Both the position numbers and the translations under genes were made by a program. From Nautilus pompilius (taxonomy: Eukaryota; Mollusca; Cephalopoda; Nautilida; Nautilidae): 64,000 nucleotides of DNA. This document shows positions 8,034 through 43,566 of this stretch, piece by piece (positions within the stretch are counted from its first letter, which is position 1; the number at the start of each line of letters is the position of its first letter). The stretch spans positions 62,001 through 126,000 of the forward strand of contig JACATO010000046.1 of the NCBI GenBank assembly GCA_018389105.1, written 5' to 3'. The notes under the pieces were generated by a model. The model ran no database searches. It was not told where the DNA came from and saw nothing but the letters and a program-made list of their open reading frames with translations.

Positions 8034-8194
8034 CTGCGAAAAGAACGGATTGGCAGCAGGGAGTTAGGGGTTCTACAAGGAAAGCAGCAGCATCAACATC
8101 ACCAGGCTGAAAATGAGCCTCATCTTACATCGATATACACAGTTCTTTTTTTATAGGGGTGGGGTGAAAAGATGACAAAGACTTCTTTGAAGTG

Positions 8195-8905
8195 TCCCGG
8201 TCAGTAAATGGTTCCAGGCCGGTCACAAACCCGCAGGTGCAACTCCAGCCGGTCACCCGCAGGTGCAACTCCTCCCGGTCACCCACCCACCGGCAGGTGC
8301 AACTCCTCCCGGTCAGTAAATGTTTCCAGGCCGGTCACCCACCCCCAGGTGCAACTCCAGCCGGTCACCCGCAGGTGCAACTCCTCCCGGTCACCCACCC
8401 ACCGGCAGGTGCAACTCCTCCCGGTCAGTAAATGTTTCCAGGCCGGTCACCCACCCCCAGGTGCAACTCCAGCCGGTCACCCACCCCCAGGTGCAACTCC
8501 AGCCGGTCACCCACCCCCAGGTGCAACTCCAGCCGTCACCCCCCCCGGTGCAACTCCAGCCGGTCACCCACCCACCGGCAGGTGCAACTCCAGCCGGTCA
8601 CCCACCCACCGGCAGGTGCAACTCCTCCCGGTCACCCGCAGGTGCCTACCAGCTTCACCCACCCACCCGCAGGTGCAACTCCAGCCGGTCACCCGCAGGT
8701 GCAACTCCAGCCGGTCACCCGCAGGTGCAACTCCAGCCGGTCACCCACCCACCGGCAGGTGCAACTCCTCCCGGTCACCCGCAGGTGCAACTCCAGCCGG
8801 TCACCCACCCACCGGCAGGTGCAACTCCGCCCGGTCACCCGCAGGTGCAACTCCTCCCGGTCAGTAAATGGTTCCAGGCCGGTCACCCCAGGGGTTACTG
8901 GAGCA
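8195..8905. repeat. GC-rich minisatellite with 26- and about 35-bp units
   Basis: Units such as GGTCACCCGCAGGTGCAACT alternate with a longer form that inserts CACCCACCGG. A higher-order block (GTCAGTAAATG-TTCCAGGCC) recurs near 8200, 8310, 8425 and 8865. The array is C-rich on the plus strand and G-rich on the minus strand. It lies between the divergent R3HCC1L-like and TIR-SLOG genes. It leaves several frames open on both strands, but those are products of the repeat, not genes. Confidence 0.95.
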
Positions 8906-9303
8906 GGTAACTGTTTTTGCCTTAGGGTCTCCGCCAACAAACAACTGCACTGGTGCTGACCGCACCAGGCCGTCCCCTCCCCCCGGGGGGGGGCTGTTAG
9001 GGTGACTTGGCTAAAAGGAACGCAGCTGAGTCCCGGGGGTCGGTCGGTCACCCACCCTACCTACCTACCTCAGGCCCCACCCTGACCCTTAACGTGACGG
9101 CCGGGTGCCCACGATCCACCTGTTGGTCCGAATGACCAAGCGGTTCGAATCCCCGTCCTCCGTCGGTCCGGGTAAACCCAGCGCCCTCCCGCTGTCGGCC
9201 TTAAACAGACAGGCAACACACCTACCTCCTCCGTCCGCTACGGGGGGTGGGGGTATCCTCTCCTCTCTCCTCCTCCTCCTCCTCCTCTCCAGCAGCCAAA
9301 GGC

Positions 9304-9601: not shown

Positions 9602-9611
9602 ATGGCGGAAG
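9602..9611 (+). other. Proposed first coding exon of the TIR-SLOG gene
   Basis: ATGGCGGAAG|GTGCGA gives Met-Ala-Glu and ends in phase 1, as exon 12065 requires. Splicing yields MAEDEGEDEK, a natural-looking acidic N terminus. It lies inside the GC-rich island. The donor is a weak GTGCGA, so the true start could be another upstream exon. Confidence 0.45.
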
Positions 9612-10185
9612 GTGCGAATCGCGAATGGCCTGTTGGGGGTCGATTGTTAGGGACCGGTATCTCTTTTCAGATTGGCTATCGCCGCTGCTGCTGCTGATAG
9701 GGGAGCGTGGATGCCGCTTTGCCTTTTTTCTTTCCTCTTCCTTTCACGTGCGAAACTTCCGAAAGTTTTGAAAAGTTTCTTCTTTCTATACACACACATA
9801 CATACACACTTACACATTTATATACACATATATATACAATACTTACACCACATATATATATACATACTTACACACATACATACACCCACCCACCCACACA
9901 CCACAATATAATAGATATATACTATATATATTATATATATATACAATACTTACAACATACATACACACACATGATTATATACACAATACTTACACATATA
10001 GCACAATACTTACACACATACATACACATATATAGAGGAGAGTGTGTGTATGTGTTTGGTTTTCTTTCTAACAGTCAAAAGAGGCGCTGACTTCTCGCTC
10101 ATCTTCGTGTACTGGAGGAGGGGGAGATTTCTGGAAATTCTTGTATTTCTTTCTTTCGAACTCAACGGATAATTTTAATTTTCCC

Positions 10186-10225
<40 letters not shown>

Positions 10226-13200: not shown

Positions 13201-16200
13201 TGCTACAGGTGTTTTATTGTACTTTCAGTTATGATACAACCAAACCTATCTTTGCCTGGTGTGGGTGTGATGGTGCGAGAGTTAGCAAAGGTGCTATGTA
13301 ATGAATACAATGAAGAGATTGCCGCCTACCTCAAGTGGGTGGGGTGGGGCTAGTGTTGGAGTCTGATAGTAGAGGTTATGGCTTAGTGAAAAAGTGTTGG
13401 CGCTAGGCAAAGTGGATGTGGCAGTGCTGTTAAGCGTTATACAGAATGCCAAACTATTGAGAAAGGGTTAAACCATGGCATTAGTCTTTTCTCAACTGTG
13501 TCAGGAGTATGGGATAGGTCAGACAACTATTTATGATCTCAGGGCGTAGAAAGATAAAATTTTCAAAATTTTTTCTGACAGCAATTCCAATTATAGCAAA
13601 CCTTATCCAGCCCCAAGTGTAGCGATTTGGATGATATTCATTACAAGTGATTCCAGCAGACATGAAGTGAAGATGTTCCGGTGTTCAGTTCTATGTTGAT
13701 TAAGAAGGCAGGGCTATATCACATGAACGCAGAAGAAGATTGTGAATATTCTACTGGGCGGTTGCAGAAGTTCAAGGATCGTCATTGGATAATGCACCTT
13801 AAGGCTTCCAGGGAAAAGTTGTCTGCCGACAGTGAGGCTGTGGAGAAGCGTGTTGAAACATTTGCTGGGGAATGTTATAGTCTCAATGCAGAGAAAAACT
13901 TTATAATGCTGATGAGGCAGGACAAATGTGTGGCATCTGGGTGAAGGAGTCCCAGAAGACGCTGACCTGTGCTAATGCTGGTGGCACTCACAAATGTAAA
14001 CTGCTTATTGGGAAAAGAGCTCGACCTCATGCCTTCAAGGGGATGAAAGTTACATTATCATTCAGATAAGCAGGCATAGATTATGCTGGAGCTGACCAGT
14101 GACTGGTTATAAAAAAGTCTGCTTACCTGAAAACTGCAAGGTTGTGTTGTTACTGGACAATTGTTGTGCTCATTCAGATGCAGAGCAGTTGGTTTCCAGA
14201 AACATCTTAGCCACGTTTGCTACCTAATTGTACTTTCCTAATCCATTTTATTGGGGAATCATCAGAAGTATGACGCGTAATTATTGCAAAGGATTTATGC
14301 GCAAAGTAGCGAGCTATATGGGTCCCTGTGAATTCAACACTTTCAAAGTCGAAGATGTAGTATAGTGTGTTGCATGTGCTTGGGATTCTGTCATATCTGC
14401 TGCACTCGAAACCTTTGGCAGGATTTCTGTCCCAGGACAATTTTTGATGGTGATGGTGCTGAATTTGAAGGCTTCCATATTAATTAACAGGCCATTTAAT
14501 TTGGTTTCTTGAGCAAAAATAATGTGTAACTCAAAAATAATGCAACTTTGCTGCATTTGGGATAAACTCATCACAGAAAAATCTAACTAAACATTCCTGC
14601 AAGTTCTCTTTAAGAAAGCATCAAGATTGTGCCCAACAGTCTTTTGCTCCTCCAAGCTTTCTTTCCAGCCCATTACTTAATGTTCCAAGATGGAATTACT
14701 TCACTGTACATTAAGACAGATGGTGACCATCCTATGCCTACATTTGATGAAATGCCTTCCTTACAGTCTTGTGTAGCCTATCCTATACTTCTGCCACCCT
14801 GACTTTGCTATGTACTCTCATGTTGCCTCATTGTCTTTTGCCCTACGCACCATTGTTTAATTCTTGTCACTCATGTTTCTCTCTTTAAATTTGTAAAGGG
14901 AGACAAAAATTTTTTTTGCTAAGTAAAAATCTTATTTTCTTTTAAAGTTTTGATTTCATTGATTTTTATTTATGTAAAATATGTGAATTAATCTTGGTAC
15001 TTTAAAAATAAAATTCACTTTTATTTGTTGGTCCTTGTATAATATGTAAATGATTTGTTAAGTATAGGATTGAAAAACGAAAATTTACATTCCAACCTAA
15101 GCAATATCCAATTAATAGACACATCAATCATCTAAAATTCCCTTGGTCCCAAGCATTCTGGACAAACAGAATCTTTCTGTACTGTCAAACTGTTTCATTG
15201 TATTTTGCTTTAATTATCCAACCTTTCATACATCAGCATGCCTTCCAATATGAAAGATCCCAACTATAGTTTGAAATCATTGAAATCTAAGGAAAAAAAC
15301 GAAACACTTTATACAACTAGGAATGTGGTGCTTATCATGGATGTTATGAATGGAGAAGTAAAGAAACTATTGCTCATTTATTTCTCTCACGAAGCAAGCT
15401 GGAATTTTTGTAAGGAAAAACTGAAGAAAAAAATACAGTAGATTCTCTTTTATCTGGAATACTTGGAAATGAGGGTGGTCCAGATAAATGATATATCCAG
15501 TTAATAGATATCACAGTGGTCATATTACAAAGCATAATTTAACCCCCTAATAATGATTAATGAACATGTGTATTATACACCTATATGCATTCACTGTGTG
15601 TAGAAACAAACAAACCTAATAAATATGTTGTACTGATGTTTAGTTCATACCTCTGCCATTTTGCACCACTACTTGATTTCTCAGTATGCTTCTTTTTGGC
15701 CCCAACTCTTGATGGCATCGCCACCTCCATTAACACCCGTAGTAAGGGTAGAGGAACGCTTTTAATTGGCCATCACTGAAATGATCAGGAAAAATGTGCT
15801 GCTTGGCTCAGTTAACCAAGTTGCATCTACCAACTGCACCATTGCATGATGGAACGGCTGCTACTGGTGTCAGAATAAAAGGAGCACCAATCAGTAGAAC
15901 ATTGCCAACTTGTGTTTGATTAACTTCTCTGTTTGGATTTCTGGATGAGAGTTGTTCTACTGTATCAAGTTCCATACTAGAGCATATTTTCTTCCCAATT
16001 CAGTACTGACTTAAGAATTTTCTACAGAGATGAGAAAAACTTAGTACTATATTTTGAATTTTACATTTGTAAATGACAAATTTTGCTAAAAGTAATAAAA
16101 AGAACAAAATTGTTTTTTCTGAAATTCTTAGAACCAAGTATGATTAATTGAGGACTTAAATTGCAATTTTTCCAAAATTACAGTCAAAAACAGATGTATT

Positions 16201-19200
16201 AGAGTGTTTTGATAATTACTGAAATAAGAAGACTTTAGATGTCTTGCTACAAAACTCACTGCAGTATCTGTAACTGATTTAGTACTTTTTGTCACAAGGA
16301 ATGATGTGTTTTCAGCATCTCAAGATATTGTAGACAGCCAACGCTGACTCTGGGATTTGAACCAGGAATCTCCAGTTACTAACTCGTGTGCTACCAAGGG
16401 TCTTTAGATTTGAAAATGTTAATTATTCATTAAGTAAGCTGTTAGTAGATACCAATTTGGTAGAGCTGTTTATTATGTAACAGCTGATCACTACTACACA
16501 TACTATGGTGATGATTTTTGGTAGAATCTCCTCAGTGATTTGGTGCCTCAGCAGGTGTTTGGTTCAAGATCAGGAATGACATAGATCTCTGGCTTAACTT
16601 TTCAAAAAGTGACCTCAGGTTTGGTACAATTGTTAACTAATTGCTTAATGCAGTATTTCATCCTCATTATCTTAGTTAATGGTAGGAAATGTGCTCTCTG
16701 TTGGTTCAGTGTACTACTGCCCTTTGAACGATTGATTAGAATGCCCACATTCCAATTTCTTACCTGGTTAAGTAGTATGGACATTCATCACACCCTTGAC
16801 TTGTTGTTTACTGTGAATGTAGCAATCTTGGTCCCTGCAGATAACCCTTTACTATTCTGACCTGAAGCCTCATGGTTCCATCATACAAACTTCGAATGTG
16901 TCATCTTCATCTCTCCTCTTGGCACATGACTATGCAATCTACAAATCTGAATGTTTTTAATTTTACAGATGCTACATACTTTTCAAGATGGTTATTTGTT
17001 ACGTTGTTCTTTTGGTAGAGTACACCTGGATGTGCAAATAGTGCTTAATATTTCTACCTTTTTGCCTATGTGGATATATTCTATTTGTGAAAGGTTATAA
17101 TGTCAACAACAGCACTGTGGTTCTAACGTTCGTTCACTCTCATCAACTTCAGATGGCCTCTGCTGATCAGCCAGGAGAAAAGTGTCAAAGCGACTGAAGT
17201 GATATCAGACAATGGCAGTGTTATAATTGAGCGATGCTTTGGTAAGTCTCCTAAGGTTATTCATCGGCTAAAGGTGTAAAGAAAAAAAAAGGTATTATCT
17301 TATCTGAATTCACAGGCGTCAATTCTACCTGAAACTATGCCTCAGACTAGTTTTTGTGCTTATTGTTTGTTTCTGTGTTTTTCACAAATGTTTAAAAATA
17401 ATCATGTGTAGTTAACTCTTTCTAAATAATTTTTTTTTTTTTTTTTAAATTTTATTTTAACTACCGTATAGATAAACCAAGAATTGGTATCTTGGCCAAG
17501 ACTGGTCTGGCAATTGGGTTTGTTTTTTCTGAGCACTCAACGCCTGTTCACCATCTGAGACTTCTCATCAACTCTCAGGTGAGCATGACTGACTCTTCTA
17601 TATTTTGGGGATTGTTTGTCTCTCTCTCTCTCTTAAAATTTCCATCTTGTTTCAAGATATTTTGAGGAAGAATGTTTAAACCCGTAAAGACACACCAGAG
17701 GCCGGGTTGGATGTCAGAAACCGTTCTTTTAGCAGTCTGGTTGAAAACAGTTGGAAAACTTCACCTGGAAAAATGGCAGTCGCTAAGTGTGTTATCGGTT
17801 TTAAGAATCTGCTCGATGCTTATTTGATGGCAAAAAAAAAGAAGAGGCATCTATAAATTCTGATTATCTCTCTGTAGTTGGGTGTGTCCATATTATTTAA
17901 AACCAGACTTAAATGACTCCACAAACAGAAGGAACACTTGTAACTTTTTTTTTTTTTATATTATTGATTTCCAAGGAATTTTTAGTAAATTTAAACTTTT
18001 GGCATTTTCTTGAAACTGCATCAGTGAATCATTAACTCATTTGTCAAGAAAAAAAAAAAACTGTTTATAAATTACCTGTGTAATGCTTACAGCAAACATT
18101 TTGAAGCCAAATGTTTAAAGTGAGATTTGAAAGCTATATTTTTATCAGAATCACACATCGTAGCCATGCTTATTAAACACTAAGTGGTATGCACAAAGTG
18201 GTTGGAATGAACTAGTTTCAGTTATAGTGCACAGTCTGTAGTAGTAGATATGTTTTCTGTTGAAAGCAGCCAACATCCATTTGTCTTGACTCCATAATTC
18301 TGAGATCACTATCATCTCTAGTTCACTTCAATAAAACTTGCCATTGGTGGTCTGCAAGTAAGAGATCCCATTATTTCTTACATGCAACTGATGATTTGTT
18401 ACTAATACTTTTAGCATTGAAACTAAAGTGATTCATGCTATTTATCTTCTCATAATTCTGTAATTTCTAAATTACAAGTACAGTTATTTTTTGTACTCAG
18501 TCACTATCATGTGGAACCAGCACATTAAGCTTCTATTATGGTAAAATAATGGGTCTTTTTTTATAAAGCCATTCAAAAACAGCATTTTTCATGGCATCAC
18601 CATTTTCAGTGTTCTCCATGCATTCCTTTCTTCAGAGGAGTGAAGAGATGGAAGTTCAAGGGTGCCACGTCTGGGCTGCATGGAGCCACCTAAGACAAGA
18701 CTGTCCCTGACTTTTGTCATGCTGGTTTTTGATCTTTTAGGACAGCTCACCTCTCTCCTGAGTGTTGCCTTCCTTAGCAGCTGTTGCTGGCTGCCTGCAG
18801 CAAGAACCATCTTGGAATTCGTTTCATCACTTTTTCACATGATTAACCCAGCCTCTTATAGTACTTACATCAACACCTAAGCATCTGTATCTTGACAGTG
18901 GATCTGTATGTGCAGAATCCCCTCAGATGTGAGAGTTTAATTACTGCTCTCTGCATAAATGCTATATTTAACTGCTGTAGTGTGCTGGTGGGAATAAAAC
19001 AACTTTGAGAGCCTCAGCAGTCTATATAAAAGTGTCTTTTGTATTGTTTTCATTATTGTACCACTTGCGCTTCACAAAATAAATAGGGGCATTATTTTTG
19101 TGATGTCCCTCCTGTATCAGGATATCTGTAGTTTATCTGTACAGCTCTGCAAAATCGTCAGATTTACTTTCATGTTGAAATGCTTTAATCTGATAAAACT

Positions 19201-22200
19201 CAAGCTCAATAGAATGCAGTGATTTAAATTTAAAACCCAGAGATTATCTTCCCTTCTTGGAAGGAAAAACAAAACAAAAATGCTACATTTGCAATAGTGG
19301 AGACCATTATGAGTAAATAAACTACAGGCTTTAAATTGCTCATTTAGCGTAACCCTAATCCCCTTATTGACTGCCCTGAAATCAAGGCTGCTTGCCTCCC
19401 CCCACCCCAAAATCATCTATAATAATGATAATACAGGTCCAGGTATCCTTTATCTGTACATTCAAAAACCAAAAAAAGTCAAGATCCAAAGTTTTTTTTT
19501 CAATGCACCATCACTGCTAATTTGCACAGGAATTTGGAACTGAGCCGACAAGAACTGTGTTGATCCAGACACCTGACCTGTAGTGTGGGAAAATTTGTTT
19601 AGCAGCATGGTTCATAGTCACTGGTTCTTTTCTTGACTTTTGTGGTTATTTAGTGCATTTATGCTTTATAGTGAACGTGATGGGTAACAGTGAGAAAAGA
19701 AAGAGGAAGCTTAATTTATCATCAGTTACTAAGAAAGTTGAGATATTGCAAAGACTTGATCATGGTGCATCTGTGAAACAATTGAGCGAGGACTATGGGG
19801 CGGGCATCACCAGTGTATATCTGAAAACCGAAATTATCCAAATTCTGTGCACAATCGGCTCCAAGCTTTTTGGATAGAGAATACTTGACCTGTAGCTGAT
19901 TTTGGTGAGACTTCACTTAAGTCAGAAAGTATTATTGAACAGAGTATTTGTTTCTTTGTTTTTCCTTCCCATTTCACTGATTACATTGTACATCTTTGGT
20001 TTGCTTGTTTATAGCAAATCCTTTAAAACTGCCTTTCACTTTCTTAAATTTGCTTCATTCAGCTAAAGTTCTTCAACGACATGAATGAGCGATACCAGTT
20101 CCTGGATACAAACGGCTGGCCAGTCAGCCGCGAACAGGAGCACAATCTGGTTGTGATGGATATTCTTGCCAACTCGTGCGTGTGTGTATGTGCCGATGTG
20201 TGCAGCTACCAGACCTTGCAGAAGTACCATCAGGGCAGTGCCCATGAATTGGAAACACCACCCTGCAAAAAGTCCAAAGTGTATGTACTGAAACTTTTGG
20301 TGCCTGCAATCTTGATAAGGGGCAAGATAACTAGCGCTCTCCACATCCCTCATAATTTCTGTAGATTAGTCTTTGCTTGCATTTCTGAAACTTTCAGTTA
20401 TTTATTTTTCACAGGAAAAGGAAGATAATTATGAGGAAATATCCTCTTTCTTTTTTATTTGTGTAATTAGTTTTTAAATAATGTGTCTGATAATTACTTG
20501 CTGCTACATAGGTATGATTAGATTAATTTATTGAAATACTTTTTTAAGCAGGTGACAAATTTTTGTTGGTTAATTCTAAATTCTGGAGCCAAGTATCTTT
20601 TTAACATAGGCTTTACACCTGAAGGCAGAGAACTCCACATCTTATACATGGCCTCTGAAATTTAGTGTTGCACCAGGCTTAATAAATTAGAAATTAAAGC
20701 TTTTGTTCTTTCATTAAATTAAAATAAAATTATAAGTCATTCACTTTTTAATATCTAAAAGCTTTAATGATTTTAAATTTATGAATAAAATGTGCCATTT
20801 TTTAAACTTTTATAAAGCAAAAGAGATTTCAGTTTTTTAATATGCTTTGACTATTCCAGAGGTCTAAGAATCTGCTTGAGACCTGGTTGATTTATAAAAA
20901 TTAACTCTGCCTACATGGTTTTGGATGAGAAATCTGTTTTCCAAAAGGAATCCTTGTTATATTAAAAGAGGGCCTTTGCCAACAAACTAAAAGATAGGAT
21001 GCTGATTCCATTTAAGTTTTTTCCATGTCTCAATTCTGCTCATGACATTCTATTTTGATAAATTTCTAAAAGAGAATCTGTAGTTAGAAATGTTCACTGT
21101 TTCTTGTTTGTGTGTGTGTGTGTGGTTTTTTTTTTTAGTCAAAACGTTACTGCCTGGATTTTGTATGTTATGGTTGTTTCCAGGTTACATAGCCGACAAT
21201 TCTGCACAGTCTTACAGTGGATTTCTTCCATTCTGTTGCAGCACCCGTCAGTTGTCATTCCAGTCCAGTAAGGATTCAGACAGGAGCAGCCTGGAGAGCT
21301 CCTTGTCGCGCAGCAATAGGACTGCTAAGCAGATCCTGATCAGTTATGTTCATGCAGAATCTGCACAGCATGCAGTGACGCTGAAGGAGACACTATCCAT
21401 TTGTGGATTCAGCGTTTTCCTGGTGAGCAGTGGCATCTCTGCTCTCTCTCTCTCACTTTACTGACAGCTGGGGATACCTTTCCCATAAACTTGTTGTTCT
21501 ATTATTTTTACTAATTGGTAAATAACTCTAATATTGATTATTTAACCAAATTAGTTGACTGTTGTTTTTTTTTTTTTTATTCCACCATCCGCATCAACTA
21601 GTAATCATTTTGTTCCTTATTTACTTTAACTGGTGTAGCAATGGATACCAAACTGGATTCTACATGGGATTGAGTTTGTAGGGGCTATCTAGCAGTTTGT
21701 TAGGGCTTTTGAATAGGATCATTTCCCTCTTGGAATGAGATGAAGAAAATGTTCTCTGCTGGAGAAGATGGTTTTGCAAGCAAACCAAATTGGAATTTGT
21801 GGTGTATTGTGGCATAACTGGATATCATTTGAAACTGATACATTCACGGCATCTTAGGAAAATATTTTGATCTACATTTTAATTGAGCAGAGGTTATATA
21901 CCATATTACAGGAGTTTCCCATTTCCGTAAATTGTTTATCAGGTTGTTCTAGAAATGGCTGAGGGGACTTAAGTGCAAATGTTTACTACCGCCCTCTTTC
22001 CATATATCCTTGTCTAGTCTATGCTGATCTGTGTTGTACACGCCGGCACAGGTAGCCAAAAACTGGGGACCCAGCGATAGAATAATTAAAATGTAGAGGA
22101 AGATATTTCAGTGAAAAGTCTTTTGAGACAAAAGGTCAAAAGTATGCATTTTTCTTTATTGGTTGTCTTGCAGTAATGTATTTGTATGTACTGATAAACT

Positions 22201-28200: not shown

Positions 28201-31200
28201 GAAGGACAACCATTATTATTATCATGCTTATCCAAGTGCCCCAAGTGAGACATAGAACATTGGAGAAACAGAGACCCACCAAAATCAGGGCTAGACAACA
28301 TAGGATAGAGAAATCAGCCATAGCAGGTCATATTTGGTCCTGTAGTCAACACATACAATGGGCCAACCGTAAAATTGTAGATTGAGAGCAGTATTGACCA
28401 GAAGAGAAACTCTACACCTGGCCCAAACATCTACTTAGTACACCTGGTGCAGAGATCAACAAAAGGTGGCTACCCCAAACTCTGACATGTAGCTTAAATA
28501 TTTCATTTAATTCTGTCCTAGGATGACAACATGAAAGTGTTGCTGAAACATCAATAATCTTACAAAAACTAGTTGCCATAAATGCTAGCAAAGTACAACG
28601 ACTCAGGTATCTAAACTCCATCATCATCTGATAAATTGATGTGCCTTTCTATGTCTTTGTTGTAGAATGTATTAATATTAAAAACCTACTCTGATTTAAA
28701 TTGCCTTTTTTCAGTGCTGTGATTTGCAGTCGCTGTTGGAAGTTAGAGGATTTGAAGTGTGGTGCACAACCCAGCTCTCAGCGGCCGAGTTAGACTTACT
28801 GCCCACATCTGAGGAAAGTACGCACTGTTCTCATTCCGCAAAGCTGTAATTCCACCTTAGTAAAACCTTCCTGATGCAGAGGTTGATTTATTGATGTTTA
28901 TTTCATTGGGTTGAAATGACTGACATTTGCTTCACCCGACCTTCAGAAAGTTCAAAATAAGTTGCAAATACAGGCAGGCAGGAAGAGGGTTAAATTAAAT
29001 AAATAGATTTTTAAAAGTGATCTGTTGTGAAATTCCACTTCTATTTCTTATTTTAAGGGAGAGAGCTTTTGTTATCTCTAGCATCAGAATCATATTACTG
29101 TTCATCTGCCAGGTGTTCTGTGAACTAGTGACGGGCCTGATTTGTTGAAAAACTGAATGAAGGAATACAAATTTTGTTAACAGGGTTGGGATTTTGAATT
29201 GCATCTATTTTATTTTTTACATCACATTTTGTGATATGAAACCAGTTAATTCACACACCGCAGTTCTGTAAGTGGCCACCTGTTAAACCAGGAAGTTGTG
29301 ACTCATTTTGAAGAATCCCTGAAATTATAACAATAGGGATGTCTTAAGACTGACAAGTTATTTTCAGGTATGTTTTAAAAGTCTATTATCTTATACACAT
29401 TTGCAGTAATTTTAAAATTGAAACGGTGAGGGGATGGGGTATTCAATTTATTTTGTTTAAATTAATACTACCAAATTTTTCAGGATATAAGTTGGTGTGG
29501 GGTTCCATTGGCTTATTTCCCCATTTTTCTTTCTTTCATTCATAGATAAATTGGTTTTGAAGTTAGTCAAACTTCCAACAGGCCAGAGCTATGTTAAATC
29601 CTTGCTAACCCTGTCACACCACATCTCCATCTGCAGTACTTCCAAGCTCTCAAATATCAATGAGCTGCTTGTGCACATCATTGCATTAATTTATGGGATG
29701 ATTGTTTAGGTAAATGGGGTGTTGAAATTGTTTTTCAATACGTTTGCAATCATGGAGAGGGGTTAGAAACAAACTGCAAATGTCATTGTCGGTTCTGGTA
29801 TCAAAAGCTGACATCAGTGGTGATCTTGTGTCATTTTCACCATGTTGAATTGCCTACTTTAAAAAGCTGAATGTATCAGTTCTATCTTGTCTTCAGCACT
29901 CATTCGATTCTGGGATATTACAGCACATTCAAATTCAGAAATTCATCTCAGCCTCAAGTTGTCTGCCATTTGGGGTTCAAAACTAGGATAGGGAGAAATG
30001 TAAAGATGGTGATTATCAGTTGCAATTATTTTGGTCTTTAATTTCAGCTGTATAGTACTAAGTTCACAACATGATGTGTGCTGGGTTAGCAATGTTTTTC
30101 CATTTATCCTCAAAGTTAGTCCAACCAGCTTTGCATCCACAATTTGCCTTCTGGGCTTTCTTTGTAGTTCATAACATATCCTTTGCTTTACTCCAGACCC
30201 TATTGCATTCCTTGCTGACGGTATATTTCCCATGCATGGACATATTACCACTATCCTCTTCAGAAAACTTTACAACTCCCAGCTTAAAAGCTGCTGTGTA
30301 CAACTTAAGTGATTTACAGGAGGCATTTTGAGATGAGGTAGAGAATTTGTTAGTAGTATTTATACATATAAAGTGCACACCTGTCATTGATTAGATAATT
30401 TTGCATGTTTCATTGAGCACATTAAAAGTGAGTTAATCAGCAAACATTTTGGGCAGTAATTCCTGTAGCCTGTTTCAAATGAACAATTTTAGTTTATTTC
30501 AGAAAATAGCACTATCGTTTTTTTTGTTTTTCATTAAAGCAATTTCAGTGACTTTATCCATAGATAAGTTGATTTGGAGTATAAGTCTAGGGCTGGACTT
30601 CTGAGGGGAAAAGTATCAACTTATGCACTGAAAAATACAGAATAATGACTGGAGGGAAACCAGACTCAGGGGGTAAACTTTAGTAGTTCTACAATCAAGG
30701 TGGTTTTCTAAAGTGACTTCTGAAGTCTGTTTAAAACCTTTAACTAAATAACTTACCCATATTGTTAGGTTTTATATGCTCTTCAATCTAATGCCAGGGA
30801 GGCCACAAACAAAACTTTACAGTGCTTTATTGAGTTTACATGGGGTCTGATGGGGTTACTATTTCTACTCTTGCCTTCAAAAGAGCTGAAAAACTTGCAG
30901 CACAACATTCTTTGGAATATTTAACCCCCTTCCATATAAACAGGATCCTGCCCAAGTGTACATGGAATTCTATGATTGATCTTTATACATTGTTACTGAC
31001 ATTTTAGCTTCTCAACCATGGCAAAGTGAGGCATTAGCACTCTGTTTCTTAGTTAGGGTTCTGCATTAGTTTTGTCTTCTGAATACAAAAAAACCCATTT
31101 ATTCTGTTGTGTGTGGACAAATTTTGGGTTGAGCATCTTATATGATAAAAAAAATTGCCAATCTTTTCATTTTCTTGTCATACTCTTATCCACCAAAAAC

Positions 31201-34200
31201 TAAGTTTTCCTCTCTCATATGCTTTCAACACTAATTTTTCCTCCCCCTCTACAATTCAGTCAACAGCTTATCTCAGACAAGTGAAGTTGACAAGACGGCT
31301 CTGGAGGACAAGCGACTCTTCCAGGAGAAGGCTGATGAAGCAGGACTGGTCATTGTGGTGATGTCGCAGGCCTTTGTCCACAGCAAGACTTGTCAGCAGC
31401 AGGTGAGCAGCCATCTATTCCCCTCATTCTTGTCAGTGTTCACCAACAAGAAAACCAGTTGACCTGGTCCTCAGATGGGAAATACTAATTTAAAATTATT
31501 TTGTTGTCTGAATATCACCTTAACCCTCTCCATGCAGTAATCATCCAGTTTTAAAAAATAAAGATACTACTTGCTTGCTCAGAATGTAAGTATGGATGCA
31601 GAAATTCAGGGAGCTTTTAATATTTACATAAAAAGACCCTCTTGACAGAAAGGGGATTATTTTTGCTACCAAATAAACCAAACCTTACTAAAACTCTGCA
31701 TATTTGCAAACTTTATGCATTCCTTCCCAAATAGAATTTTAAAAACTTGAATTGTTACCAGAAAAGTACATGTTAGCCAAACTGGGTAGCCAAAGCCTCT
31801 TTACTATTTTTTTCATAACTGAGAAAAAAGCCAATTGAAGGCGACTAACACTCAGTATGGAGCATTCTGCATTAGCTAGGTTTCTGAGCTCACCAAGTGC
31901 TAGCAGTCAGTCCCTCAGCTGCAGTAGCCTTGCTCTCCTCACAAGATCATGCAATGAGGAAGAGAATTGGTGCCAAATAGTGTCTTCTGTGACCTCTAAC
32001 CAGTATTAAATATTAGATTACATCTATGTAATATTAATCATTTCAGTAAATTGTGTTTGTACTGGTTTTCCAAAGCCTCCATATCTTCAGCATAATTTGG
32101 AATTCATGCCTGCACCACATACTCCAAAAGGTGTTCTAAAGAATCAGACTTGCTGAGGTTTAGTCTTGTATAGTATGATTCAGCGTGCTTGATGATGTGT
32201 GCTCGCTCTTTACAGGTTTTTTATTGTGAGCATCGCAAAAGGATCATTCTGCTGAAGTTTGAAGATTTTGCCATGCCCTGCTGGATGAGCATGCTAATTG
32301 GAAACAGCAGAGTAGAGGTGAGTGCCATTACCTGTGCTATTTATCATCACACTTTGTTTAATCTATTAGTAATTGATAGAAAAACATAAGTGGTATGTAG
32401 AAGGGGAACCAGATCTAATGTCACTGACCTGTGCACTTTCAGGACATCAAACATGAGAACTTCTCTGAATCTCTATTATTCCACATCGATAAAGCTCTGG
32501 ATCCGACAACTAGAGAAAGTCCACGGGAAGAAATAAGTGAAGCAAAGATTAAATTTGCTGTGAGTATACATCTCCCCACAAAGAAAACGATTTTACTTTT
32601 TTATTTTCTGTGTTTTTGGTGGACGGTTTAATGTCTGAGTAACTGCTTGGTGTGGTAGCAAGGTTGGGGCTGCTTGCTTAAGTGGTCTCTTTCAAAATTC
32701 TGCTGTTCACAAACCAGCAGCAGAATTCAGCTGAAGTAGTATGACCATCATCCTTGCATCTGAATCTGGTAGAGCAGAAAGATGCATTTTCAGTACTTTT
32801 TCTATAAACGTCACCACAGATAAGCTGAAATTCTGGCTTGATTCTACTTGCAAGGGGAAATCATTTGTACTCTGCATCTCTTGGCAGATTTGATTCTTGT
32901 CCTTAATTTTGTCTGTGTTCAGAATACTCACCACTATGCATTGTGCATAAATCATGAGTTATGGAAAGGGTTAATCAGAGTAGGAATCATCTGTCTTGTT
33001 TTTTAAAGTGGCTGTGCTGCTGACAATTTACAAAAGAAGCGAATTAAATGTCTGCCAGCCTTCAAAAGCAGAGAGCTAATTTGTTGTAATTTTTCTCTCT
33101 CTGACTATCTTTAGTATAAATTTTCTCTGAAGTTTTTTTTTTTTTTCTCTCTTGCATTTTACTCTATCTTCCTTATTGATTTGATAGCTAAATACATTGA
33201 AGTGAACATCAGGACCTAACTGCAAGTGTAGTATTGCAGGAAGATTTTCTAACTTATCTGCCAAACAAAGTAAAACATTGCATACACAGCCATTTTAACC
33301 CTCTATACACCACATTGGTTTTTACCTCCTTTATCCCCCCACCTTGGCCTAAAAGCACCAATTACTGTTTATTTAGTCAACACATTTATAATGTAAGACG
33401 TGTGGGGTTGGGGTGACGGATGGATTTGTGTTACTAAGGGTTACATTAATAACGAAGGTACTGCACTTGTCAGCCCGTGCAGATTTGAATGGTAGTGGGT
33501 GTGAGTGGACCTCTGGTTGTATAGAGAGGGTCGGGGTTAGTGGAACATTTGATGATTCCCTTTTCTTGTTTCATACTTTGAAAAATTGTTTTTTTTTAGC
33601 AATGCAAAATCAGAAAATATCTTCCATTGGAAAGTTGCTTGTACATCTCTGGAATTTCTCAGAACCTGTGCAAGGAGACAGAAGCTGTGTGCAAGTAAGA
33701 CACTCAAAAACCTGGCCATCTCTCTCTCTCGTTGCTTTTTTAAACAAATTTAAAATATTTAAAAAAAATTTTTTTTTTAAATTTTTTTAAAGGGGCTTAG
33801 AACATTTTTATCTAAGTTTCCATGAGTCAAATGTCTGTTTGCTGCTGGGTTAAAAGAAATATATATATATATATATATAGCTCAAAATTTTATGATGGAT
33901 TTAATGTAAGCATTTTTAATTATATATTTATATATATATATTTTTTTAAATATCTGGATAAAGTCAGTCAGTTTTCTATCCGACATTTAGTGTTGTAAGT
34001 GAATTTGTTGCCAGAAATATGCACAAGAGTAATGTTTTATTTTGTCATGTCTGTATTTCAGACTTCCAGAGTTGTGTGCCACCGACAAGATGCCTTTAGT
34101 CTGTAATTTTCAGACAAATTCAGAATATCTTATACTTTTGCTATGATTTTTTTATTTTAGAATTTATTTGTAAAGTTGTTTTAAATTTAATAGAATTGTT

Positions 34201-37200
34201 GTATTGATTCTATAGTTGTAGACCTTTGAAAAGAATTAAATCAGCACATAGGCAGGTGGAATGAATTTGCTCACTTTCCCAGTATACACACTAAAGTGAA
34301 ACAATGCAGCGTTCATTTTTCTGACTGCATCTCAGTCAACAGAAGCTTTCTTTGGAAATTCTTGACAGACATCAGTGCAGGGCTGAGCAGCAACAAATCC
34401 AACTTGATCGGTGTTACTGTGTACTCGAATCTGGTGCATTCCAAATATAGAGTTTTGTTAGTTGAACATTGCAAATCTGGGATTGTAAACTGTGCTAACT
34501 CATCTCTGAAATAAGATAACGTGTCATTTACATTGTTGTTTCTTTTATTTTTAAGAGCAATTGGTCAACATCTTGCTGCCCTACAGCATTTAACCCTGGT
34601 CACTAATGGCTTCTTTGGTGTTGGAGAACTAGTTAGCCGAACATTCTTTGCAGAAACTCAACATCTTTGGAAGTCTAACCAAGTTTGGCACATCTTGCCT
34701 GAACATGACCCTCAGGTTGGTTGTCACATGTTTTGTGTTAATATTTATCTTTAGGATACAGAATTTTAAGAAAACATCAGATAATGTCAGCATCTGCTCA
34801 TATGTGTGTATATATATATATATATTGGGAGAGCCCTAAATGTTAACATAAATGTTATACCTCATTAGTTCTTTCAACCTCATGGCAATCCTTCTATTCT
34901 AGTTCTATTATGCAATTCTATCTTGACCACCAAAAAGGGGGCTTTTGTGTGCCATTATGTATCAAGCTTTTGTTTGCCGCAGTATTATTAAAAAGTATCC
35001 ATTTAGTTGAATTTTCTCTGAATTTAAGATATTCCTATCAGGATGATCTTTAGTGATATCTTTTATTTTGCTTCTTTCAGGATCAGAAATGGAGAGCTTG
35101 CCAGAACACAGATGGCACTTTTTGCAAGGTGTCCTTTGGAAAAACCATGTTCTTTGGGAGCAGTGTCTTGGAGCGAGAAACCATTGTAGCAAGAGTTTTT
35201 GATATCTGCATTCTTATTGAAGGTAAATACAATGAATGTCCACAAAGAAGCCCTCGTTTTTGTTTTATTTTGTTTTATGGAATGAATTAGGGATGCCACT
35301 GTCTGGTGGTGACTGTTTTGTTTTGTTTTGCTTTAAAATTTCTTTAAAGGAAAATTGTTTTGCTTTTGCTTACTTTAGAGAAGTAAAGAACCACTTATTA
35401 CTCCTCTCTATATGTAATTGAGAAAATAACACTGAGTGAGGGTTCTAGAGTTTTTATTGTATACTCTTTATGTAATTTGGTATTGCCATATGAGAACCAT
35501 TACTTGATGGGTACCCCCCAGTGAGTTAGCAGCACAATGCAAGTTGACTGATTATCATAGCATCAGTGATAGTAGAGGGTCATTCCATCCACATCATATC
35601 AACTTCCTGACCCCCTCAGATTTTAATGAAATTTCTTTTGAAAGTGCATTGGACTCTCAAAGGGAGGTTTGCAAATTTGTAGCCCCCAATTCATACTACA
35701 GTAAACCCCCCGTCATATCGTGGTTCAGTTTTCACGGTCCCGCTATTTCGCGGTTTTTTTCTGTAAGACCTATTAATTTTCATATCGCGTATGTTTTCGC
35801 AATTTCGCGGCATTCCATAGCATTGTTTATGAGTTTAAATCTCCGCTGATTGGCTGTTCTGTTTTAGAAGCATCTCGCAGGGAGAGAAGCTGTTCGCCTT
35901 GCTGTTTTATTGATAACCCCAAGGATGCCACCCAAACGCCCATCATCTAAGGCTTCTGGTGAGCCAAAGAAGAAGTGAAAGTTCTTGATGATTCAGGAGA
36001 AGGTGGAACTTCTCGATATGATAAAGGAAGGACAGAGTTACGCTGCCATAGCCCGCCATTACGGTATGAATGAGTCAATGGTTCGCTACATCAATAAAGA
36101 TGAGAAGAATATCAGGGCAACCGCTTCGCTTTGCATCAATGAAGGTGCAAAACGAGTTGTTTCTATCCGCAATAAAAACATCATCAGGATGGAAACTGCC
36201 TTGGCTTTTTGGATCCAAGATTGCCGAAAGAAAAACATCACTTTGGATGGTAACACCATCAGGACCAAGGCAAAGAAGCTGTACGACACTTTTGCCGATC
36301 AAAGAGGTTCCGAAGCCGAACTGTCAGACAGCGACAATCCTGATGATCCTCAGCCTTCTACATATTCATCAGGAGGCTTTTCTGCCAGTAAGGGATGGTT
36401 TGACAGCTTCCAGAAGCACTTTCAGTTGAAGAGCATTTCATTGCAAGGTGAAGCTGCATCTGCCGACAAAGAAGCTGCTGCAAGGTGTTTTCCATTGCTC
36501 TTGTTTTCTCTCAATATCTTTTATGTGTTTAAATGTGTTTCTATTGTTTTAAAAGTGTGTTTAAAGACCTTAAAATGCATTTAAAAGTACCGTAAAAGTT
36601 ATAAAAACATGCCTAGGGTGTATTTAAATAGGGTATTTCTATTTCGCGGATTTCCACTTATCGCGGGTTGGTCTGGAACGTAACCCCCGCGATGGAGGAG
36701 GGACTACTGTAGTTCCAAAGATTCAGAGCTTCAACTATAATGTTTCCTTTTATGCAAAAGACATAATCCACATTTCATTGATCAGTAGCCGCATTCACAA
36801 GTTAACTGTTACCATGAAACTTGAGTTCTTAAGGCAACTTTTCAAGCAAATCCAAAAATTGATCAGGTTACACAATACGTGAAGCAATAAGCTGAACACT
36901 TTCAAATCATGGTAATTGTATTCCTGTTATCTTGGTATGAAATACAACCAGAATATAGAGAATAAGAATCCCACCCGCTAGAGTTTTGTGCTTATGAAGA
37001 TGTCGTTGCTGAATGTATAACCAAAAAATACCTTGAATTCAGAAGCCAAAATGGCCCTAATGTGCTCTGAATAAACGTTTGTAAACTACATATATAATGT
37101 CCTCTGAGGTTTAAGAATCAGTGGACATGTTTGGTTATCTTGTTTCTGAGGGATGAAAACCTTCTAACATTGCATATTACTATTTGCGTTCGTAGATGTA

Positions 37201-40200
37201 TTTTGAATTTATCACTTTAGCCTGCTAATATTGGATGACTGTTGGCGCGACTGCATTAAATAACCACATTGTCAGTCGTCAGTGTGAGAACGATGAGTTA
37301 GAGTCTGCCCAGGGGAGGACTTTGTCTGTTGAAATCAATGGAGGAGAAAAAATTCAAATGCAAAAGTAAATGCTGCAGTGCAAATTGAAGGAACTTCATA
37401 CAATTTACAGAGACAAACAGGGACCAGAAATTGGTTTCTTACAATTTTGTGAACTTAAAACCAGAACAGTGTGTAACTGTCGGGTAATCTGAATGCATTC
37501 AGTGTGTATGCACCACTCATTGGAATGTGCAACTGATGGCAGGTGATGGTAGTGGAGATGACTACAGATCTCTCATCAGCATCAGTATAAACAGTGGGCA
37601 GGTTTGGAAGGTCTACTAGAGTTCCCACTGAACTGACTGACATGATCAAAATGCCTGATTTGGGTCTAATCTGTGATAAAAAATAAAACATCAACCATTT
37701 CTTACACTTTTTTGGCATCTTTATAAAATGTTATCTCGAGAACTCAAGTTTCATGGCAACAGTTGTCTTGTATTTGCTACTAGTGACCAACGAAATGTGG
37801 ATTTTGTCACATACATACAGTATAAGAAACATCAACCTTTGACATGTACTCTAGGGTTGAGGGCCGTATCTTTGGGACCAGTACGAACTCAGGGACACAA
37901 CTTTGCAAATCTTCCTTTGCGAACCCAATGCACCTTCAGTAGAAGTTTCATCAGATCTGGAAAGGGTTCAGTGGGATACTTTTGATGATTTGATGCAAAA
38001 TGACCCTAGAGCATACAAATTAAGAAAGAGAGAGAAAAATAAAAGTGAATAAATAAACCAGTTCTTTTATTTTTCAATTATTCATTTAGGTGGATCTGAG
38101 ACTCGACACGAGGCCCAACAGTTTGCCTGGAATGACAGAATAGTAATCCCTGTTCTGTGTAAGTCTGGTGCTAATGGCATGAGACTAGATGTGCCAGACA
38201 AGATCTTTGAGGTATGGTAGCTAAGTTACTGTTCTTTACATTTCTTATGTTGTTTTGATTTTAATGGATCTACATCAGCCCTTTTCACTTTTAGTGGCTT
38301 CCTCATTTAATTTCTATTGAAGGCATAAAACGTTTTATTTTGATTCCAGTATTTTGCTAAGTGTAAACAATGCCATCTATATTTAGCAAGTGCTACTAAA
38401 GAGGCAAATATCAGTCTGAGTTATGACTCCTTCCCCATTTGTTTTCGAAGGTTTCTCGCAGTGGAAGCAGAAGAAAGGGACATAAATGATATCACGTGTT
38501 AATTTTCATGACTGACTTACGACCCCTTTAAAGGGATTGTTACGATATCCAGACCAGCTGCCGAGGTTATCTCTCTTAGTGCTGTTAGACAGTGTTACGC
38601 GGACATTACTGGGGCTTCAATAAACTGAATTAAAATTTTTCTAAAAAAGAAAACATTTATAAACAATGCTTTCAAATTGACTGTTATTTAGCTTTATACA
38701 AATGTTTCATTTAGTTTGCTATAAAGCTTTTGTTTTTGCAAGGTGGCAATTTAATCACCAAAAGGCCATGTAACATTGTTGGTGAGAGAATTTTCTCATA
38801 AGTAGAATAGAACTCTGAGGTGGTTGGACAAAGAAAAAAAAAGACCTGCAGAAGAGGAGAATCATCAAAGTAGGCATCTTTTGTTGGTTTTCATCATGTT
38901 AAGTATAAAATAGGTTAGACTAGCTGGGGTACCTGGTGTTTTAGGGGGAAAATGGCTTTAGGCCTACATGTAGGTGCTACAGTTTGGCTGTGAAAGAGTA
39001 ACACACAAACACTTAAATAAAATGGGCTAGATGTGAACTATGATACAACTCAGCTTTTCTGATACAGGGTTGGTGACTGGTCATGGTGTTTAGCATTACT
39101 CAACATGTTTTAGTGGTCATCTGATGGAAAATCATCAAAATATTTATGAAATACTGAGAGGGACATCCAAAATAATGCCTCCTGTTTATTCGTAAAGAAT
39201 GGCAAGTAGGTACAATAATGAAAATTACACCCAAGATAGTTTTATCATTCCTCTCTTGCTTTGAAAGCTGAATTTTATTTTCCCACCAGGTGGGACGCTC
39301 CACAGCAGTTGAAAATGGTAGCTAGCATTGATACTCATTTAAGCAAAGAGCAGTAATTGAATTTGCCATCGGGGATTTATTGTCGCACGATAAATGTGTA
39401 TGGAAACTTAGGTGTTGATGCTAGTAGTACTGTAATACAGTGGTAAATCATGTAAAAAGTGGAGAAAATTAATTTTGACAGGACTTGCAATGGGTGGCTG
39501 GCAGCAACTGCTAATGAGGAAATACAGAAGGGAGATGGAACTGACTTGCAAAGATAGATGCATCAAACAGCATGACTTGAGGATGGTCTTGGTACTGGTC
39601 ATTGTATAATATGGAGATGATTACACTGGTCAACACAATATTTTTGGCAGGAAAAGTGAGACTGGTTTCTGGGGTTTTCAAGGGCGCTGAATCCGAATCT
39701 GACATTTGTTTTTCAAGTTGGCTCTAGTTTGGAGATATCACAGGGGGGTCGTTCGTCTGAAATCACCCATTCGCGACCATAACTAAACGTACAAAAAACG
39801 GCTAAATAGTGCAAAAATGTCAGATATTGATTTTTATGATAATCCAAAACCACAAAGACAGTGTAAAATCTCAATCTAACAAGTTAAGTTAGATATAACA
39901 TCATTTCATTTATTAATAAATGAACACTTTTCATATATTTCGAGAATATACAAAAAATTTGCTAAAAATTTGCTGAATTTTAATTCTCCAAGGGAAAAAA
40001 ACATTTACATAATCAGTTATATATCATAAATTAATGCAAAGCATTATTATACACTAGATTCTTAGTTACAATGAACACACAAAACAATATTTTATTCACA
40101 AAAGTGAAATTGACGTTTATACGATTTTCGCTTGTGAGCAACTTTCGGGCAGTCTCTCAAAAGGTTCCAGCAGTAGTCTGCCATCATGTGCTCATCCATT

Positions 40201-43200: not shown

Positions 43201-43566
43201 TGTGGCCAACATCACAAACTGATGAGATAGATGATTGCACAGTCAGGTAGATGGAATTTTTCCTTTGCTAAATGTTTGCTCTTCATCACCCAGGTTCCAT
43301 CTGGAGTCTGCTTGGATGACTGGAGGATCTTGAACTCTGACACAGGAAATTCGGACCTGATTGGACAGGCTGTTGCTAAGATAGTGAGGGTTTTACTGCA
43401 GAAGCTGCTTTCAGAAACATCTGGGAGAGGAGGAGGGACCCAGATGGGGCCAGCTGACAAAGTTGAGCCAAAGATCAAAGAAGACAAGAAGAACTCCAAG
43501 AATGTCTCAACTCGCAGGAAGGATAGGCCGAATCTTACCTCAATGAAGACTGTGGTTCTAGGCTAA
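9602..43566 (+). CDS. TIR-TIR-SLOG fusion protein (864 residues, 19 coding exons)
   Basis: Coding exons: 9602-9611, 12065-12257, 17153-17241, 17472-17578, 20063-20280, 21242-21422, 22796-22921, 24152-24287, 24978-25129, 26047-26172, 28715-28817, 31260-31402, 32216-32317, 32443-32559, 33600-33694, 34556-34715, 35081-35222, 38090-38211, 43294-43566. All introns are GT-AG, every phase agrees, and the sum is 2,595 nt including TAA. Order: two copies of an unassigned module (about 25-90 and 107-172), TIR-1 (about 235-355), TIR-2 (about 433-600), SLOG/LOG-like domain (about 610-800), Lys-rich tail. No signal peptide or membrane segment is seen, so it is probably intracellular. TIR domains act as adaptors or NAD-cleaving enzymes, and SLOG domains bind nucleotide-derived ligands. 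A role in NAD-derived signalling or immunity is inference. I cannot match it to a named vertebrate gene. The 10-base first coding exon is the least certain part. Confidence 0.8.
9788..10035. repeat. Interrupted (CACATA)/(TATATA) microsatellite
   Basis: Imperfect CA, ATAC and TA repeats cover about 250 bases of intron 1 of the TIR-SLOG gene. The long open frames across it are low-complexity artefacts. Confidence 0.95.
10190..10220. repeat. (ATT)n microsatellite
   Basis: About ten ATT repeats in intron 1 of the TIR-SLOG gene. Confidence 0.95.
10221..12052. other. Intron 1 of TIR-SLOG, no further feature seen
   Basis: AT-rich sequence without a recognisable gene, RNA or complete repeat. An open frame runs from 11872 through exon 2, but the part upstream of 12052 looks like intron and has a pyrimidine tract. 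Confidence 0.5.
12956..15184 (+). mobile_element. Decayed Tigger/pogo transposon, about 2.2 kb
   Basis: The left end (CGGTAGGATCTCATTTGTCTGGA after TA) is mirrored by a diverged right end near 15140-15184. Inside, in different frames, are a psq helix-turn-helix (CQEYGIGQTTIYDLR, about 13500-13550), a CENP-B-type second DNA-binding region (ASREKLSADSEAVEKR) and DDE-domain remnants such as CANAGGTHK and LLLDNCCAHS (about 13970-14190). Frameshifts and stops make it dead. It lies in intron 2 of TIR-SLOG. Confidence 0.75.
15436..15962. mobile_element. Non-autonomous Tigger-like MITE, 527 bp
   Basis: It starts TA-CAGTAGATTCTC and ends CTACTG-TA. The inverted ends are related to those of the element at 12956-15184. 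No transposase frame is visible. Confidence 0.65.
16325..16415 (-). repeat. tRNA-related repeat (SINE or tRNA pseudogene)
   Basis: On the minus strand there is a TRGYNNANNNG-like A box and a GGTTCAAATCC B box at tRNA-like spacing. No clean seven-base acceptor stem can be drawn, so it is not called as a tRNA. Confidence 0.4.
18530..19115 (-). mobile_element. mariner-like relic with internal deletion
   Basis: The 5' end (minus strand) starts near GGAGGGACATCAC-AAAAATAATG, the same family as the copy at 39165. A helix-turn-helix remnant with GVDVS-like and W-x-N-H-V text is followed directly by a C-terminal remnant (PPCSPDVAPLNFHLF, LKKGMHG). Most of the catalytic domain is missing, and stops are common. 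Confidence 0.6.
19434..19892 (+). mobile_element. Tigger MITE with a psq-domain remnant, 459 bp
   Basis: TA flanks an element beginning CAGGTCCAGGTATCCTTTAT and ending with the complement of CAGGTCAAGTATTCTCTATC, the typical Tigger1-type terminus. Inside is KRKLNLSSVTKKVEILQRLD plus KQLSEDYG, an N-terminal psq helix-turn-helix, cut off before any catalytic region. Confidence 0.85.
23035..23290 (+). repeat. SINE-like repeat sharing a TCTCCCACATCTAAAA core
   Basis: The core TTTTCTCCCACATCTAAAAA also occurs near 57669 (plus) and in reverse near 42545. This marks a dispersed family in the window. Full boundaries are not clear for this copy. Confidence 0.5.
23395..23835 (-). repeat. GC-rich tRNA-derived repeat block in intron 7
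   Basis: The block is sharply GC-richer than the surrounding intron. On the minus strand it contains GTTCGAGTTCCAGCC, a good B-box match, with A-box-like text upstream. No coding potential is seen. It is probably one or two adjacent SINEs. Confidence 0.5.
27955..28235 (+). repeat. tRNA-derived SINE
   Basis: The 5' part has A-box-like TAGCATGATAGATAG and B-box-like GTTTGGTTTCC. It ends in a short ATT-rich tail (CCATTATTATTATC). It lies in intron 10 of TIR-SLOG. Confidence 0.6.
29950..30345 (-). mobile_element. pogo-like DNA-binding-domain relic
   Basis: The minus strand encodes KLYTAAFKLGVVKFSEE, then VWSKAKDML and an Arg-rich segment. This fits the N-terminal helix-turn-helix of pogo/POGK-type transposases. 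No ends or catalytic region were found. Confidence 0.5.
33858..33960. repeat. (AT)n microsatellites
   Basis: TA tracts at about 33860-33881 and 33922-33942 in intron 15. Another lies at 34809-34826. Confidence 0.9.
35573..38012. mobile_element. Long-TIR DNA element (about 2.4 kb) split by a Tigger insertion
   Basis: The left arm (35573-35698 plus 36712-36850) is an imperfect inverted copy of the right arm (about 37735-38012). Shared blocks include AGGGTCATT, GAAAGTGCATTGG, TTTGCAAA and CCATGAAACTTGAGTTCT. The inverted repeats are about 250 bp once the Tigger is removed. No transposase was recognised in the middle. It lies in intron 17 of TIR-SLOG. Confidence 0.7.
35699..36709 (+). mobile_element. 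Tigger/pogo element with truncated transposase, 1,011 bp
   Basis: TA duplications flank termini CAGTAAACCCCCCGT and the complement of CAGTAGTCCCTCCTCC. The open frame 35985-36584 (199 codons) has a psq helix-turn-helix (ELLDMIKEGQSYAAIARHYG) and a CENP-B-type domain ending GEAASADKEAA. It stops where the DDE domain should begin. The AT-rich tail and intact ends make this a deletion derivative that kept only the DNA-binding half. Confidence 0.9.
39624..40946 (-). mobile_element. CACTGG-ended long-TIR transposon with an unnamed ORF family, 1,323 bp
   Basis: Termini CACTGGTCAACA are inverted, extend about 115 bp with gaps, and are flanked by TTA on both sides. The minus-strand frame 40600-40184 (138 codons) contains IKVHFLFSHLDRFPGNLGDY and EEQGERFHQDIKTMEERYQG, a protein family I know only as unnamed repeated proteins in arthropods, Hydra and other invertebrates. 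A one-base loss after GKW breaks the frame; MMADYCWNLL continues in the next frame. CACTG ends with a 3-bp duplication would suit the CACTA superfamily, but the protein is not a recognised CACTA transposase. Confidence 0.75.
40661..40748. repeat. Perfect palindrome plus 29-bp hairpin
   Basis: A 22-bp palindrome (40661-40682) overlaps a perfect 29-bp inverted repeat: arms 40680-40708 and 40720-40748, loop 11 bases. It lies inside the CACTGG-ended element, downstream of its right inner region. Confidence 0.95.
41875..42438 (-). other. 187-codon open frame in intron 18, unassigned
   Basis: This is an uninterrupted minus-strand frame in AT-rich DNA. It is Ile/Lys/Ser-rich and no domain is recognised. 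The part near 42240-42300 (SDGHTRDEIGRQTALKQD) looks more protein-like than the rest. It is probably a repeat-derived or chance frame. Confidence 0.15.
42475..42700 (-). repeat. tRNA-derived SINE
   Basis: On the minus strand, A-box-like GGTCCAGCGGTAGACC is followed by B-box-like GAGTTCAATTCCC. It also has the TCTAAAA/CTCCCACAT core seen at 23090 and 57670. It lies in intron 18 of TIR-SLOG. Confidence 0.7.

Follow-up and report, generated by a model that had tools for sequence, protein, structure and literature searches.

Two TIR domains and a probable SLOG domain on one predicted polypeptide of Nautilus pompilius

Can TIR and SLOG parts, which bacteria carry on separate anti-virus proteins, be joined on a single animal polypeptide, and what could such a protein do? 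The question is raised by a locus in a 64,000-nucleotide stretch of the Nautilus pompilius genome (assembly GCA_018389105.1, contig JACATO010000046.1, positions 62,001 to 126,000 of the forward strand), hereafter the window, whose positions are counted from its first letter. To our knowledge, SARM1 is the TIR protein known to cleave nicotinamide adenine dinucleotide (NAD) in animals, and we know of no animal SLOG domain shown to read a TIR product. An earlier note on the window had reconstructed an 864-residue protein carrying two TIR-type domains and a SLOG-type domain, and had likened it to the bacterial Thoeris systems. We read the locus, from its sequence, as one intact animal gene with many exons and an outline that is real. 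Tentatively, and with slightly less than even confidence, we favor a scheme in which the first TIR (TIR1) is an enzyme, the second (TIR2) serves assembly and the SLOG domain is a ligand gate, all in cis on the product of this gene.

The core of the gene was reconstructed independently as 14 exons on the + strand (21242-43566), joined at canonical GT-AG sites in consistent phase to give 658 stop-free residues with the domain order TIR1, TIR2, SLOG (Table 1). The 3' end (TAA, ending at 43566) was taken over from the earlier reading. Codon scores were slightly below zero (-0.1 to -2.1) in four core exons, including 33600-33694, the weakest of the core, which links TIR2 to SLOG and was picked by phase and protein sense. 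The gap that holds this exon offered two best-scoring candidates with the same donor, and the longer one was chosen for the first strand of SLOG that it contributes. Five candidate 5' exons extend the core to 853 residues from an ATG at 9602, which lies within CpG-rich sequence. Several splice scores in this 5' chain are weak and the modelled N-terminal stretch matched no Pfam family, so its 195 residues are treated as unsettled. Residues 103-167 of the 853 scored 22.6 in hhalign against the small ThsB-type TIR family, above 40 shuffles, but with an E of 0.01 and a probability of 4% in one of 12 comparisons, and nothing was drawn from this match. The one-chain protein proposed earlier survives, at the sequence level, as a core in phase and free of stops, at a total of 853 rather than 864 residues and with its 5' part provisional. 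The many introns suggest a long-resident gene rather than contamination.

The membership of TIR1 in the TIR superfamily is secure by sequence comparison. Pfam TIR_2 (PF13676) matched it with an E of 1.8e-15 and 57.9 bits (gathering cut-off 28), and the closest TIR to it by sequence in the PDB was that of SARM1 (5.8e-7). The WTNRE motif of TIR1 aligns to WVHKE of SARM1, so that its Trp and Glu fall on residues 638 and 642, counted along the 724-residue SARM1 chain; we take E642 to be a catalytic residue of SARM1. E642A is the SARM1 mutant used in PMC11025887. TIR1 is likely catalytic, and of the two TIRs only this one, with WTNRE where TIR2 has TCQQQ, is plausible as an enzyme. The best NCBIfam model for TIR1, matched over its TIR region, was ThcB4 of Thoeris type III (NF058526; 9.2e-20), at 70.8 bits versus the 220 required, and the best PADLOC model was ThsB1|ThsB (2.1e-14). 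Identity to ten ThcB4 TIRs ranged from 31 to 35%, and hhalign aligned TIR1 with 85 ThcB4 frames at 9e-16 (score 104.3; none of 40 shuffles above 21.3). ThcB4 as the best NCBIfam family is a new point beyond the earlier reading.

The identity of the C-terminal domain as a SLOG is probable, not proven. Cluster 4 (LDcluster4, PF18306) was the sole Pfam match of this region, with no match to the cluster 3 family of ThcA, the STALD family of ThsA or a TRPM family; NCBIfam TIGR00725 appeared at 0.004, far below the model cut-off, and a PDB sequence search returned no SLOG or TRPM chain. When the domain was aligned by hhalign with the four best cluster 4 proteins from 27 bacterial-genome loci, its glycine motif, ILP strand, Arg and GGxxTxxE all fell in collinear order, with a score of 21.1 that none of 40 shuffles reached in either of two runs. 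Its Arg (in LER) and Glu (in GGSETRHE) line up with the Arg and with the GGxGTxxE motif of LOG and cluster 4 proteins, but the canonical PGGxGT reads EGGSET and GGGxxGxM reads NGFFGVGE. SLOG domains are described as nucleotide-ligand sensors or N-glycosidases, the LOG-like ones being N-glycosidases (PMC9503650). As described in PMC11025887, the SLOG of ThsA binds the TIR product, a cyclic ADP-ribose (ADPR) isomer, and its oligomeric state changes, and SLOG-like domains of TRPM bind ADPR derivatives.

TIR2 is probably degenerate and no enzyme, because Thr and Gln stand at the Trp and Glu positions of WxxxE (TCQQQ), as placed by motif position and the Pfam-matched region without a pairwise alignment to SARM1. 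Pfam recognized no effector domain in the core or the modelled N-terminus, and the simplest arrangement would then have TIR1 as the enzyme and the SLOG of the same protein as its control, while TIR2 helps the chains to assemble. TIR1 would cleave or cyclize NAD+, and SLOG would bind a nucleotide ligand (NAD, nicotinamide mononucleotide, ADPR or a cyclic ADPR isomer). Binding of this ligand would turn assembly of the TIRs on or off, in the way that SARM1 is gated by its ARM domain. We infer the NADase activity, the ligand, the gating and the biological role, immunity included.

Several points weigh against this scheme. The TIR_2 match of TIR2 (1.9e-4, 22.3 bits) lies below the Pfam gathering cut-off of 28, and the LDcluster4 match of SLOG (1.4e-4, 21.9 bits; 14.3 bits in an earlier provisional chain) lies below its cut-off of 26.3. 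By comparison, five shuffles of each region gave no match better than 0.11, and those of TIR2 gave nothing for TIR_2. The hhalign probability for SLOG and the cluster 4 proteins is just 2.4%, and with a larger collection of 26 LOG-type frames the score is 17.7, inside the shuffle range. The W...E pair is seen as well in TIRs of Toll-like receptors from this genome (for example at loci L094 and L097, the latter a frame with leucine-rich repeats and a TIR), so WxxxE is necessary but not sufficient and is no proof of activity. The unsettled N-terminus could hold a regulator or an effector, and the chain is predicted from genomic sequence. The arrangement of two TIRs and a SLOG on one chain put forward in the earlier note holds at the sequence level, firmly for TIR1 and under the cut-offs for TIR2 and SLOG, but only TIR1 looks catalytic.

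An unlikely alternative is a Thoeris-like circuit in cis, in which TIR1 makes a cyclic ADPR-type signal and its receptor is the SLOG on that chain or on a neighboring one. It is likewise doubtful that an animal lineage keeps such a circuit on one polypeptide, where a ThcB4-like TIR would make an NAD-derived signal to be read by the SLOG on that polypeptide, as a self-contained immune switch of the cyclic ADPR type. The NCBIfam match of TIR1 to ThcB4 speaks for such a circuit, as do the operons in which ThcB4 is found, which carry a SLOG protein. TIR1 retrieved 32 plasmid records by tblastn (best 3e-12, 32.8% identity), and 11 of these loci were fetched. All three loci tested with NCBIfam encode ThcB4 and then ThcA (NF058525), and in these Pfam assigned ThcA to SLOG cluster 3 (LD_cluster3, PF18180) and the upstream gene to ThsB_TIR (PF08937). 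Patterns derived from ThcB4, when scanned against one genome for each species, contributed 80 loci, kept from 208 confirmed, for a total of 91. A ThcA-like frame accompanied the TIR1-like frame in 87 of the 91, a share biased by the choice of patterns, the models having been built from ten of these loci. Three of the other four (L025, L036 and L081) end within or soon after the TIR frame, and one (L069) has full flanks and no ThcA match.

Other results speak against the cis circuit. SLOG is not detectably ThcA: BLASTP found nothing, hhalign scored 13.5 (five shuffles scoring up to 15.9), and against 81 ThcA frames the score of 21.1 spanned 56 non-collinear columns and was equalled by two of 40 shuffles. 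Nor is there a recognized output domain for the signal to switch. In a tree of 74 TIRs (a random draw of 28 of the 91 ThcB4 frames, 38 of the 39 further frames at these loci, six of eight own-genome loci, a SARM1 fragment and TIR1), TIR1 fell outside the ThcB4 group (support 94/93), its position near SARM1 and ThcB4 not being settled by the tree. TIR2 had no Pfam match to PF08937, the small ThsB-type TIR, and its hhalign score against this type was equalled by 14 of 40 shuffles. A bacterial single-chain TIR-SLOG fusion was sought in the 80 and 11 loci: in all 87 that have a ThcA-like frame, this frame is separate from the TIR frame, and the animal SLOG had no relative among the loci. We tested whether the whole chain could descend from a fused Thoeris type III operon, and this is unsupported, because SLOG has no convincing link to ThcA, TIR2 has none to the small TIR and TIR1 lies outside the ThcB4 clade. 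What is supported, from sequence, is a TIR of a ThcB4-related type beside a SLOG. The likeness to Thoeris drawn in the earlier note is strengthened somewhat by the ThcB4 match of TIR1 and by the SLOG-bearing ThcB4 operons, but the one Pfam match of the SLOG itself, below the cut-off, is to cluster 4 and not to the family of ThcA or to STALD, and TIR1 missed the ThcB4 cut-off.

Returning to the favored scheme of a TIR1 enzyme gated by its own SLOG, the gate could instead be a second enzyme, with TIR1 making an NAD-derived product and SLOG hydrolyzing its N-glycosidic bond. The aligned LER and GGSETRHE motifs, shared in position with LOG and cluster 4 proteins, and the N-glycosidase activity of LOG-like SLOGs (PMC9503650) are consistent with this, but the altered glycine motifs and an alignment to the LOG set that stays within the shuffles make it quite unlikely. 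It is very unlikely that neither domain is enzymatic and that the protein is a scaffold whose TIRs mediate assembly, as in an adaptor of the Toll pathway, with SLOG as a ligand-free binding module. The loss of W and E in TIR2, the WxxxE retained by Toll-like receptor TIRs of the same genome and the statement in PMC11249213 that animal Toll-like receptor TIRs lack enzymatic activity fit a scaffold, but the nearest relatives found for TIR1 are SARM1 and ThcB4. A model error that merges two genes, with TIR and SLOG exons in separate transcripts, is suggested by the weak score of the joining exon and is just as improbable, since the phases match across both of its joints and AATAAA is absent between 32560 and 33600 and present at 43772, 3' of the SLOG stop.

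The enzyme-and-gate protein that we favor resembles several known systems in part. It may work like Thoeris or like SARM1, and what was found places it in neither. SARM1, an animal NAD+ hydrolase, has the TIR nearest to TIR1 in the PDB, and its W638/E642 pair is retained in TIR1, but the nautilus protein has a second TIR and a SLOG in place of the ARM-SAM-SAM-TIR architecture, and neither ARM nor SAM had a Pfam match in the core or the 221-residue modelled N-terminus, where the model is unsure. Thoeris type I (SIR2-SLOG ThsA and TIR ThsB) also places a TIR and a SLOG within one pathway, but its marks, SIR2 (sought in the core and the modelled N-terminus) and a STALD-type SLOG, had no match. 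Type III is alike in the sort of parts (TIR, TIR and SLOG) and its ThcB4 is the best NCBIfam match of TIR1, but it spreads the parts over several genes and its ThcA belongs to cluster 3, which the SLOG here did not match. Relative to the LOG-like proteins of cluster 4, collinear motifs are held in common and the altered glycine motifs, the animal host and the TIR fusion are different. TRPM channels, with their SLOG-like MHR1/2, offer the likeness of a SLOG-type domain in an animal, and the GG-rich motif of our SLOG presumably resembles theirs, but no channel was found, no TRPM chain came up in the PDB sequence search and Pfam gave no TRPM-type SLOG family.

If this reading is true, the joining in cis of a catalytic-type TIR with a SLOG would allow a direct test of whether a bacterial kind of cyclic ADPR-type signaling persists in animals, and the gene would be a natural fusion of enzyme and sensor. 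That TIR1 resembles Thoeris type III, where the neighboring gene encodes a SLOG, points to a pairing of TIR and SLOG found repeatedly in different domains of life. Our literature search found no description of a TIR-TIR-SLOG architecture in the partial texts it covered, and one may already be in print. Relatives were also sought more widely. TIR1 had none in phages at an E of 0.01, SLOG had none in plasmids at an E of 1, and a provisional chain used as query found none in viral contigs. A phage match to SLOG (MW735835.1, E 0.02) was rejected as antisense to an annotated gene. In the nautilus genome itself (727.6 Mb, 2558 contigs), eight TIR_2 loci were fetched from 28 matches and only one of these (L093) was similar, at 29% over 96 residues; PF18306 had no single-frame match in a search blind to split exons, those of the present gene included. 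Frames with leucine-rich repeats and a TIR, in the style of Toll-like receptors, occur elsewhere in this genome, and one (L100:1342-3285) combines such repeats with two tandem TIR_2 stretches.

Table 1. Features of the TIR-SLOG locus and transposase remnants in the window.
Feature	Positions	Strand	Remarks
Candidate 5' exons	9602-9656, 13229-13343, 17153-17241, 17472-17578, 20063-20280	+	195 residues before TIR1; phase-consistent chain, weak scores
Core exon 1	21242-21422	+	Start of TIR1; TIR_2 1.8e-15 over TIR1
Core exon 2	22796-22921	+	TIR1, WTNRE; Trp codon 22907-22909, Glu codon 22919-22921; aligned to SARM1 W638, E642
Core exon 3	24152-24287	+	End of TIR1
Core exon 4	24978-25129	+	C-terminal extension of TIR1
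Core exon 5	26047-26172	+	Linker and first strand of TIR2
Core exon 6	28715-28817	+	TIR2
Core exon 7	31260-31402	+	TIR2, TCQQQ replacing WxxxE; Thr codon 31388-31390, Gln codon 31400-31402; within best TIR_2 stretch (1.9e-4)
Core exon 8	32216-32317	+	TIR2
Core exon 9	32443-32559	+	End of TIR2 and linker
Core exon 10	33600-33694	+	Probable SLOG, first strand and helix; chosen by phase and protein sense
Core exon 11	34556-34715	+	Probable SLOG, NGFFGVGE replacing GGxxGxM motif; LDcluster4 1.4e-4
Core exon 12	35081-35222	+	Probable SLOG, LER; Arg codon 35174-35176; aligned to Arg of cluster 4 proteins
Core exon 13	38090-38211	+	Probable SLOG, GGSETRHE; Glu codon 38110-38112; aligned to GGxGTxxE
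Core exon 14	43294-43566	+	C-terminus of probable SLOG, basic tail, stop codon
Tc5/CENP-B-type transposase N-terminus remnant	35979-36581	+	HTH_Tnp_Tc5 1.9e-10; inside an intron of the TIR-SLOG gene
Tc1/mariner-like transposase remnant	53935-54976	-	DDE_3 6.9e-10 at 53935-54345; frames beyond by eye

To the left of the TIR-SLOG gene, and head to head with it, lie two long frames on the - strand (657-1202 and 1215-2798) that, with their repeated YVPRARR-like motif (SWDVLFDDNGDC), we take to resemble R3HCC1L of vertebrates; Pfam gave no match for these frames (657-2798). A CpG-rich stretch near 9.5 kb may serve as a promoter for both genes. In a minisatellite-like array at 8168-8959, each of the three + frames stays open over a long distance and encodes one and the same peptide repeat. 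A second CpG-rich stretch (62401-63900; GC 0.57-0.67, CpG observed/expected 0.64-1.09) is a possible promoter of the next gene.

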